Shown here piece after piece: positions 33,483 through 38,061 of a stretch of DNA of 64,000 bases. The DNA comes from Acidimicrobiales bacterium. Lineage in GTDB: Bacteria; Actinomycetota; Acidimicrobiia; Acidimicrobiales; VFJN01. Position 1 is the first letter of the stretch; each line of letters opens with the position of its first letter. The position numbers and the translations under genes are program-made. The stretch covers positions 1 through 64,000 of the forward strand of contig DATHJB010000170.1 in the NCBI GenBank assembly GCA_035316325.1, given 5' to 3'. Under the pieces are notes generated by a model that made no database searches, was not told the origin of the DNA, and saw only the letters and a program-made list of their open reading frames with translations.

Positions 33483-34496
33483 CTAGCCCCGGGGCGAGGC
33501 GTCGAGGCCCAGCACCAGGTGCTCGGCCGCCGCCGCCAGGGCCGACGCGGCGGGTCCCGGCGGCACGTCCGCCAGCGCACCCACGGCCTGACCCACGTAC
33601 TGCCGGGCCACCTCGGTCGCCTCACCGACGCCCGAACCCGCCCGCACCAGCTCCAGCGCCTTCACCCGGGCGACGTCGTCGATCGGCCCGCCCAGCAGCT
33701 CCCGGAGCTGGTCGCCGTCGGGACCGGTGAACGCCCGTAGCACCGGCAGGTTGTAGACGCCCTCGACCATGTCGTGGCCGGCGGGCTTGCCGAGCTCGTC
33801 GTCGGTGGCGACCACGTCGAGGATGTCGTCCACCACCTGGAACGCCATCCCGTAGCTGAGGCCGTAGTGCCCCAGCGCGTCGACGACCGAAGCGGGCGCC
33901 GCGCTCACCATCCCGCCGATCCGGCAGGCCGTCTCGTACAGCGCCGCGGTCTTGCCGGCGATGGCGTCGAGGTAGGCGGGCTCGCCGCGGTCGACCTGGT
34001 AGGCGACCTGCAGCTCCTGCACCTCGCCCACGCACAGCCGCCCGATGGTGCCGGCCAGCATCTGGGCGATGGCGGTGCCCAGCCCGGCGGCCAGCTCCGA
34101 CGCCCGGGCCAGCAGGAAGTCGCCCGAGATGATGGCCCGCAGGTTGCCCCAGCGGGCGTTGACGCTCTCCACGTTGTGCCGGGTGGTGGCCTCGTCGAGG
34201 ACGTCGTCGTGGTGCAGCGACCCGACGTGGACCATCTCGCAGGCGACCCCGCCGATGACCGCGTCCTCGCTGGCCGTCGCCACCGTGGCCCCGTCGCCCG
34301 CCGTCACGGTCGACGACACCACCGCCAGGACCGGGCGCAGACGCTTGCCGCCCGCCCGCACGAGGTGCGAGGTCATCTCGGTCAGGTCGGCGTGGGGGGT
34401 CTCGGTGGCCGCGAGCAGCCGCTGTTCGATGCGATCGCGCAGCGCCGGCATGCCGTCCAGCGCGAGCAGGGGGTGGGGCGCAGGCACGACCGTCAC
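33483..34496 (-). CDS. Polyprenyl diphosphate synthase (GrcC/HepT-like)
   Basis: The product is 337 aa. The first Asp-rich motif is HHDDVLDEATTRHN (DDxxD), followed by GDFLLARAS. The second is MAFQVVDDILDVVATDDELGKPAGHDMVEG. GGKRLRPVL near residue 50 binds diphosphate. It extends allylic diphosphates, most likely to the octa- or nonaprenyl chain of menaquinone; chain length cannot be read reliably. GTG start. Confidence 0.9.
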   Translation of the reverse strand: MTVVPAPHPLLALDGMPALRDRIEQRLLAATETPHADLTEMTSHLVRAGGKRLRPVLAVVSSTVTAGDGATVATASEDAVIGGVACEMVHVGSLHHDDVLDEATTRHNVESVNARWGNLRAIISGDFLLARASELAAGLGTAIAQMLAGTIGRLCVGEVQELQVAYQVDRGEPAYLDAIAGKTAALYETACRIGGMVSAAPASVVDALGHYGLSYGMAFQVVDDILDVVATDDELGKPAGHDMVEGVYNLPVLRAFTGPDGDQLRELLGGPIDDVARVKALELVRAGSGVGEATEVARQYVGQAVGALADVPPGPAASALAAAAEHLVLGLDASPRG

Positions 34497-34549
34497 GCTA
34501 GGGCCGGGATCGGAAGCCCCCGAAATCCCAGCTCACACCCGCTACCGTC

Positions 34550-34585
34550 GGGGTAGGCGGACGAGGCGGGGTAGGCGGACGAAGG
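34550..34585 (+). repeat. 18-bp tandem duplication upstream of the Clp-N gene
   Basis: GGGGTAGGCGGACGAGGC is followed directly by GGGGTAGGCGGACGAAGG (16 of 18 identical), ending 7 nt before the GTG start. The second unit supplies the purine-rich ribosome-binding region. Confidence 0.8.
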
Positions 34586-34592
34586 GGGCGAG

Positions 34593-35327
34593 GTGTTCGA
34601 GCGGTTCACGGACAAGGCCCGGCGGGTGGTGGTCCTCGCACAGGAGGAGTCCCACCGCCTGGGCCACAACCACATCGGCGTGGAGCACGTCCTCGTCGCG
34701 CTCGTCCACGACGACGAGAGCCTCGCCGGGGGCGCGCTGGCCGATCTCGGCGTCGACCTGCCCGGCGCGCGGGCGGCGGTCGAGGACCTGGTGGGCCGCG
34801 GCGACGGCACCCCGTCCGGCCACATCCCGTTCACCCCCGCCGCCAAGCGGACGCTCGAGCTCTCGCTCCGCGAGGCGCTGTCGCTCGGGCACAGCTACAT
34901 CGGCACCGAGCACCTGCTGCTGGGACTGGTGAAGGAGCTCGAGGCCGAGGAGTCGGACCTGCTGCCCCGCCTGGACCTGTCCCCGGCGCAGGTGCGTCAG
35001 GCGGTGACCGCCCGACTCACGGGGGGTCAGGTCGAGGAGGAGCCTTCGGTCACATCGGGCCGTCTGACCGTGACCTCGGCGAGCACGCCGTGGCCCGCGC
35101 ACGTCCGACCCACCTCGCTGGCGGCGTCGGTCATGAGCGGTGTGAGCGACGAGGCCACCCGGCGCCGACATCCCCGGATGGGCAGCGAGCACCTCCTGTT
35201 GTGGCTGCTCAGCCGGCCCGACGGCGGGGCGATGCGGGCGCTCCGGGCCGAGGGCGTCGAGGTCGCTGCGCTGCGACGGCGCCTCGAGCAGATGCTGGCC
35301 GAGGCCGGAGATTCCACAGATCCGTGA
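34593..35327 (+). CDS. Stand-alone Clp N-terminal-domain protein
   Basis: The product is 244 aa. It has a full double Clp-N repeat ([19 protein letters not shown], then HNHIGVEHVLVALVH, then [17 protein letters not shown], then SYIGTEHLLLGLV), closely similar to the N-terminus of the next gene, clpC. A linker and a further Clp-N-like piece follow (HPRMGSEHLLLWLLSRPDGG, then ALRRRLEQML). There is no AAA module. It may modulate substrate or adaptor choice by ClpC, or be a decoy; this is inference from paralogy and adjacency. The start is GTG. A TACCGT box at 34543-34548 is a possible -10, giving a leader of about 40 nt. Confidence 0.8.
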   Translation: MFERFTDKARRVVVLAQEESHRLGHNHIGVEHVLVALVHDDESLAGGALADLGVDLPGARAAVEDLVGRGDGTPSGHIPFTPAAKRTLELSLREALSLGHSYIGTEHLLLGLVKELEAEESDLLPRLDLSPAQVRQAVTARLTGGQVEEEPSVTSGRLTVTSASTPWPAHVRPTSLAASVMSGVSDEATRRRHPRMGSEHLLLWLLSRPDGGAMRALRAEGVEVAALRRRLEQMLAEAGDSTDP

Positions 35328-35453: not shown

Positions 35454-35459
35454 TACACT
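35454..35459 (+). promoter_or_regulatory. -10 candidate (TACACT) proximal to clpC
   Basis: TANNNT box 37 nt upstream of TTG 35497, leaving room for the GGGAGG Shine-Dalgarno in a short leader. No HrcA or HspR operator was recognised here. Confidence 0.35.

Positions 35460-35496: not shown

Positions 35497-38061
<2,565 letters not shown>

Follow-up and report, generated by a model that had tools for sequence, protein, structure and literature searches.

What does a protein made of Clp_N repeats, and without an AAA module, do when its gene stands directly upstream of clpC? We address this question for a gene at 34593-35327 (+) of a 64,000-nucleotide stretch of an Acidimicrobiales genome, called the window here, for which a first-pass annotation had taken the adjacency to suggest a ClpC regulator.

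A free ClpC N-domain with a lone third repeat

The gene has a GTG start and encodes 244 aa. Pfam assigned the protein to a single family, Clp_N (PF02861; 117.4 bits, E 3e-34), in three stretches and found no AAA family, so that it does not classify as a ClpC unfoldase, which has an M-domain and two AAA modules that carry Walker motifs. Scored singly, repeats 1 (34638-34796, +) and 2 (34869-35015, +) reached 54.5 and 41.7 bits, and repeat 3 (35148-35297, +), which amounts to half an N-domain and stands alone behind a low-confidence linker, reached 38.9 bits; because this is by itself above the curated Clp_N cut-off of 20.7 bits, repeat 3 is a real repeat rather than a chance match. The reported composition of two Clp-N repeats plus a further one, with AAA absent, was thus borne out, and the extra repeat that had been called degenerate exists as an above-threshold Clp_N match. 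Codon use fits a real gene, with GC at the three codon positions (0.79/0.50/0.92) similar to that of clpC (0.70/0.39/0.94).

The top PDB sequence matches are ClpC and ClpC1 N-domains (E 3.9e-50, residues 1-147). An AlphaFold2 model (mean pLDDT 83.7, pTM 0.60) is confident over the N-domain, where ten-residue blocks across 1-140 score 88-98, falls below 50 in the linker (146-167) and shows five helices between residues 173 and 237, of which the first and second score about 61-73 and the others about 86-90. In a fold search, whose match list was taken up by a single domain, the model matched the cyclomarin-bound ClpC1 N-domain (3wdc) with Z 23.1 and 2.0 Å over 145 residues, and the C-domain of ClpC2 (8ad9) with Z 20.5 and 2.7 Å over 144. 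The protein is of a known kind, a free ClpC N-domain, in an unusual build that has no HTH-like domain and carries the lone third repeat as its odd part.

Ligand-contact residues are retained

Residues 1-145 align without gaps to the ClpC N-domain, with 82 of 144 positions identical to the clpC product next door. Elsewhere in the class, ClpC N-domains share 81-99% identity with that of the window, so the description of the repeats as nearly identical to ClpC was too strong. Against 44 ClpC N-domains, namely that of the window plus 43 further distinct sequences with 140 aa or more (two shorter distinct ones were left out), the free protein is 53-57% identical to each.

We then considered residues with published roles. 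The available text of three papers (PMC10030653, PMC7193532, PMC6395927) links F2, E3, R4, V13, V14, Q17, H77, F80, K85, E89, L92 and L96 of Mycobacterium tuberculosis ClpC1 to cyclomarin, rufomycin or ecumicin binding or resistance, and that of a fourth (PMC12583610) places T7, E32 and E106 in the phospho-arginine sites of Staphylococcus aureus ClpC, which we mapped to positions 6, 31 and 106. All 15 ligand, drug and phospho-arginine positions are kept in the free protein, on a list drawn up after F2, F80 and E89 had already been seen to be kept; many ClpC proteins themselves also have 15 of 15. For thirteen of these positions conservation in ClpC is 95% or higher; all 13 are kept, compared with 61 of 106 other positions conserved to that degree (Fisher P = 0.0013), or with 51 of 79 when the comparison is limited to residues 2-113 (P = 0.006). 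The 45 changes at ClpC-conserved positions are concentrated elsewhere: 34 lie within 33-68 and 114-145, where 34 of 57 such positions are altered. R8, which by our mapping is R9 of S. aureus ClpC, a residue among the mutants studied in the available part of PMC12583610, is K in the free protein.

The chain begins MFERF, as in ClpC1, and residues added before Phe2 of ClpC1 are described in the accessible text of PMC7193532 as weakening ecumicin and rufomycin binding. Judged by these residues, the free protein looks like a working ClpC N-domain.

Pairing with clpC across Acidimicrobiia

In the window, clpC (35497-38061, +; TTG start, 854 aa) follows the free gene after a gap of 169 bp, which confirms the reported direct adjacency. 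On the other side lies a polyprenyl-synthase-like gene (33483-34496, -; named by eye), which in this class commonly lies divergent from clpC. To assess conservation, a check that the first-pass annotation had proposed, we took one clpC locus from each of 54 genomes among the best matches in a 40-relative search and a 395-genome class search; these are not a random draw, and the loci from the 40-relative search cover 29 of the 40 relatives. One locus with only 365 bp of upstream sequence (L014, genome G024) was set aside, leaving 53 genomes; two further loci (L069 and L084) came from genomes already in the count. Each locus offered up to about 1.5 kb of upstream sequence; the stretch was as short as 302 bp in L022 and 423 bp in L037, yet both still have the synthase next to clpC. 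Clp_N ORFs were sought in these stretches by blastp with the 244-aa protein as query (E 1e-3).

None of the 53 other genomes assessed had a Clp_N ORF just 5' of clpC. The synthase-like gene is divergent from clpC in 49 of them, at an estimated gap of 87-605 bp (median 161), and the stretch 5' of clpC holds neither synthase nor Clp_N ORF in the other four (G008, G025, G043 and G065). All five same-family genomes with an assessed locus (G001, G002, G004, G005 and G006) have the synthase and no Clp_N ORF before clpC; a sixth family member that is 67% complete (G003) gave no match at all in the 40-relative search, and the genus is represented in the comparison set by this genome alone. Close relatives thus lack the gene beside clpC, the very outcome that the first-pass annotation had named as evidence against its proposal. 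Given the prevailing synthase-clpC order and the absence of Clp_N ORFs within it, the free gene was most likely inserted between synthase and clpC in this lineage, which we regard as more probable than its loss from all the others.

The clpC gene also appears to have kept transcription signals of its own. A TACACT box lies at 35454-35459 (+), 3' of the free gene and at -43 of clpC. Between -60 and -25, a box of this type is present 5' of clpC in 34 of 53 other loci (200 shuffles: mean 1.9, maximum 8), a set that differs from the 53 genomes above by one genome each way. The clpC leader resembles by eye that of a same-family genome (G001). From this sequence pattern, clpC most likely retains its own promoter downstream of the free gene, and an operon of the two is therefore not required. 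Since the pair occurs in none of the 53 genomes, the five of the same family included, and clpC has its own promoter-like box, adjacency is not evidence of a regulator. A consensus scan of the region returned 0 promoters and 0 terminators. Before the free gene, TACCGT (34543-34548, +; at -50) is the sole TAnnnT within 100 bp of the start and, by inference, a possible -10 element; two copies of a repeat, GGGGTAGGCGGACGA (starting at 34550 and 34568, spanning 34550-34582, +), lie directly 5' of the gene.

Origin of the gene

A tree of 34 N-domains, with long branches, stars on 2 of 31 inner branches and an unsettled bootstrap, left the free protein unplaced. Compared as paralogues, the free gene and clpC differ by dN 0.39 and dS 0.68 (NG86). 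Over codons 70-113 (34800-34931 against 35704-35835 in clpC), 29 of 34 codons at identical residues are shared, the highest among 47 clpC genes, compared with 20 of 38 over codons 2-69. This would be a weak hint of gene conversion with clpC, weak because several stretches were looked at.

We also searched 395 class genomes with the third repeat, scoring 13 candidates in most genomes, so that the figures refer to the matches listed and weak orthologues may be missed. The best listed match outside the own genome (E 2.3e-9) was dismissed as an orthologue candidate, being the start of a clpC at a contig end; the next listed include free Clp_N proteins at L064 (7.7e-8) and L076 (1.8e-7) and a 247-aa frame in genome G307 (1.9e-7). 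A scan of public genomes confirmed 147 loci; the 80 listed are mostly Nitrospira by title, and the 28 of these that were inspected consist largely of complete ClpC but include free Clp_N proteins from Pseudonocardia, Catelliglobosispora, Leptolyngbya and Anabaena.

Free Clp_N proteins in other genomes, phages and plasmids

Free Clp_N proteins are not confined to this locus. Three more are encoded in the same genome, on contigs C43, C210 (L041 3154-3987, -) and C212 (L040 3468-4316, +), and they keep 12, 8 and 7 of the 15 site residues. The C43 protein (L039:3183-3932, +) has an HTH-like N-terminus that matches the ClpC2 N-domain (8ada, E 7.1e-6), and two ClpC2-type operators lie within 50 bp 5' of its gene; they match at 13 and 12 of 14 positions, and none of 300 shuffles equalled the better of them. 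By sequence it is likely the ClpC2 counterpart of this lineage. The same operators occur in genomes G030 (L044) and G034 (L053), and a changed form, CGACAAC...GTTGTCG, in G001 (L052). The C210 protein also has an HTH-like N-terminus by eye, and no ClpC2 operator was found upstream of its gene; the C212 protein has a C-terminus similar to the ClpX C4 zinc finger, at 23.0 bits (E 7e-5) and thus under the cut-off of 27.

At least 11 of the 40 relatives carry one or more free Clp_N proteins (G001, G009, G013, G015, G016, G019, G024, G030, G034, G035 and G036), with absence of AAA established by Pfam for L044, L045, L047, L048, L051 and the own genome's three and judged by length for the others. 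Four of 20 regions inspected were not counted: L042 and L049, rejected as clpC ends cut by contigs, L043, which has an in-frame stop, and L058, which by eye looked like a chance match. Several free proteins carry additional parts. A CcdA-like, antitoxin-type DNA-binding N-terminus (E 7e-4, below cut-off) precedes Clp_N in L064:1390-2154, L076:1123-1845 has an N-terminus of antitoxin DNA-binding type by eye, L047 combines Clp_N with a sub-threshold match to a LuxR-type HTH, and a 523-aa protein of Anabaena sp. UHCC 0204 (L089:3995-5566) has four Clp_N stretches, a UvrB/C-like match below cut-off and no AAA.

Mobile elements encode such proteins as well. Mycobacteriophage Myrna gp251 (L177:2471-3178; NC_011273.1 152856-153563) is a free ClpC N-domain of 235 aa without AAA that is identical to the window's ClpC N-domain at 115 of 144 positions and keeps 14 of 15 site residues; by sequence it is possibly a phage-encoded ClpC decoy. 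Phage Phabba was also among the matches for a free ClpC N-domain. On Mycobacterium branderi plasmid pJCM12687 (L178:2501-3208), a free 235-aa Clp_N protein keeps 14 of 15 site residues. By eye, its tail is similar to the tails of L047, L048 and L051; all four may share a C-terminal module. No clpC was noticed around the Myrna, plasmid and L048 genes in the stretches inspected by eye.

A candidate competitor for ClpC ligands

The reading that we favour, at a probability of roughly one half, is that the protein is the substrate-receptor domain of ClpC in free form, specific to this lineage, and competes with ClpC by analogy with mycobacterial ClpC2. We infer that it would bind ClpC N-domain ligands in the same hydrophobic groove; candidates are unfolded segments and adaptors, and possibly phospho-arginine proteins, cyclic-peptide antibiotics and phage proteins. 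Having no motor, it could not hand them to ClpP, so that binding would amount to competition with ClpC as a decoy, sponge or holdase, and the lone third repeat probably serves self-association or holds the domain in place. The presence of three ClpP matches and one ClpS match in the genome counts for this reading, as does the free ClpC N-domain of phage Myrna; the lack of an orthologue among the genomes searched, an identity of 57% in a domain with very little variation otherwise, and K at R8 count against it.

ClpC2 provides the tested precedent. As far as the available text of PMC10030653 goes, ClpC2 binds cyclomarin like the ClpC1 N-domain (2.2 versus 2.3 nM), offsets the effect of the compound on ClpC1 in vitro and is protective in M. 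smegmatis; it has an N-terminal dimerising domain and keeps its own gene repressed through the operator CGTCAAC-n5-GTTGACG until ligand is bound. Ilamycin and ecumicin also bind ClpC2, yet trigger no rescue (PMC12913811, accessible part), and a review ascribes competition for ligands to the small Clp proteins ClpC2 and ClpC3 (PMC10864484, accessible part). Direct orthology to this self-repressing cyclomarin sponge would account for the free N-domain and the fold match to 8ad9, but we rejected it as highly improbable, since the protein has no N-terminal dimerising or HTH-like domain, the best operator match within 200 bp 5' of the gene covers 8 of 14 positions (88% of 300 shuffles were as good), and the C43 protein is the better candidate. 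With no such operator upstream, induction by ligand is not supported, and competition by the free receptor would run without a ClpC2-type self-repression loop. No more credible is the idea that the protein confers immunity specifically against a ClpC-binding peptide from this organism or its neighbours; the groove shared with ClpC1-binding antibiotics and its 15 kept residues could be adduced for it.

The main rival to the decoy reading is docking on ClpC itself. Here the free domain would bind ClpC (the M-domain or AAA1, the resting place of ClpC's own N-domain) or ClpP and affect activity or assembly, a role that has been proposed for plant ClpT1, which binds plant Hsp100s and alters ClpD ATPase in the available text of PMC4243950. 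In S. aureus ClpC, the phospho-arginine sites and K85 are the means by which the N-domain maintains the resting state (PMC12583610, text available), the equivalents T6, E31, K85 and E106 are all kept in the free protein, and the model matches ClpT2 (4y0c; Z 18.0, 2.5 Å over 143) and ClpT1 (4y0b; Z 17.3, 2.3 Å over 135). Ligand binding would keep those same residues, though, N-domains of many other Clp proteins match the model too, R8 is K and the pairing with clpC is unconserved, which leaves this regulator rather unlikely. We give similar, limited credence to a diverging duplicate of the clpC 5' part with little or no function, retained by chance: its restriction to this genome among those assessed, its divergence from a near-invariant domain and its unsettled place in the tree would suit such a relic, but 244 open codons with strong codon bias, the full set of site residues and a third repeat still above the family cut-off speak against it. 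A more elaborate possibility, which we consider doubtful, joins capture and docking: lone third repeats from two copies would pair into a pseudo N-domain, and the resulting dimer, with two intact grooves, would capture ligands and dock on ClpC. A single gene placed 5' of the clpC promoter would in this way tune ClpCP in trans, as a second, independently formed solution beside ClpC2.

Part of the original proposal therefore stands: modulation of ClpC is the best reading, with ClpC2 as precedent, while adjacency falls away as its support. Likewise, the claim that such a regulator was not described in this group agrees with the acidimicrobial ClpC literature screened by title and abstract start, where we found none, but the kind is already described in ClpC2. 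Among the matches listed, literature on free Clp-N proteins is mostly on plants; the available part of a ClpI paper (PMC10149685) does not mention ClpC2.

Mycobacterial ClpC1 is a drug target, and the ClpC2 precedent indicates that a free copy of the receptor domain can blunt a drug. If the favoured reading is true, a ClpC2-independent receptor with 15 intact contacts and with phage and plasmid kin would mean that decoys arise repeatedly, and antibiotics aimed at ClpC may encounter sponges that are already in place. Should the protein be a relic, its importance would be slight.

Comparison with known systems

Set against ClpC, the free protein lacks the AAA modules and the M-domain. Plant ClpT1 and ClpT2 are likewise free double Clp-N proteins of a Clp system (PMC4243950, accessible text), but they are distant (17-20% identity in structural alignment) and absent from the PDB sequence matches within E 0.001, and by these matches the free protein is not closer to ClpT than to ClpC. 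A similar layout is that of L048 (genome G034, contig C48), which has a ClpC-like N-domain, 15 of 15 sites, a third Clp_N stretch and no AAA, but is 438 aa long with a further C-terminal part. The Myrna and M. branderi plasmid proteins share the ClpC-like N-domain, with no AAA found, and have two Clp_N stretches against three here. Mycobacterial ClpC2 (Rv2667; 8ad9, 8ada, 8b9o) has the same fold and is also a ClpC N-domain without AAA, and its cyclomarin contacts F2, F80 and E89 are F, F and E in the free protein; the ClpC2 N-domain (8ada) is not among the 42 PDB sequence matches of the free protein. Unlike ClpC2, the free protein has neither the N-terminal dimerising domain nor the operator; it starts directly at MFERF and bears a third Clp_N repeat at its C-terminus.
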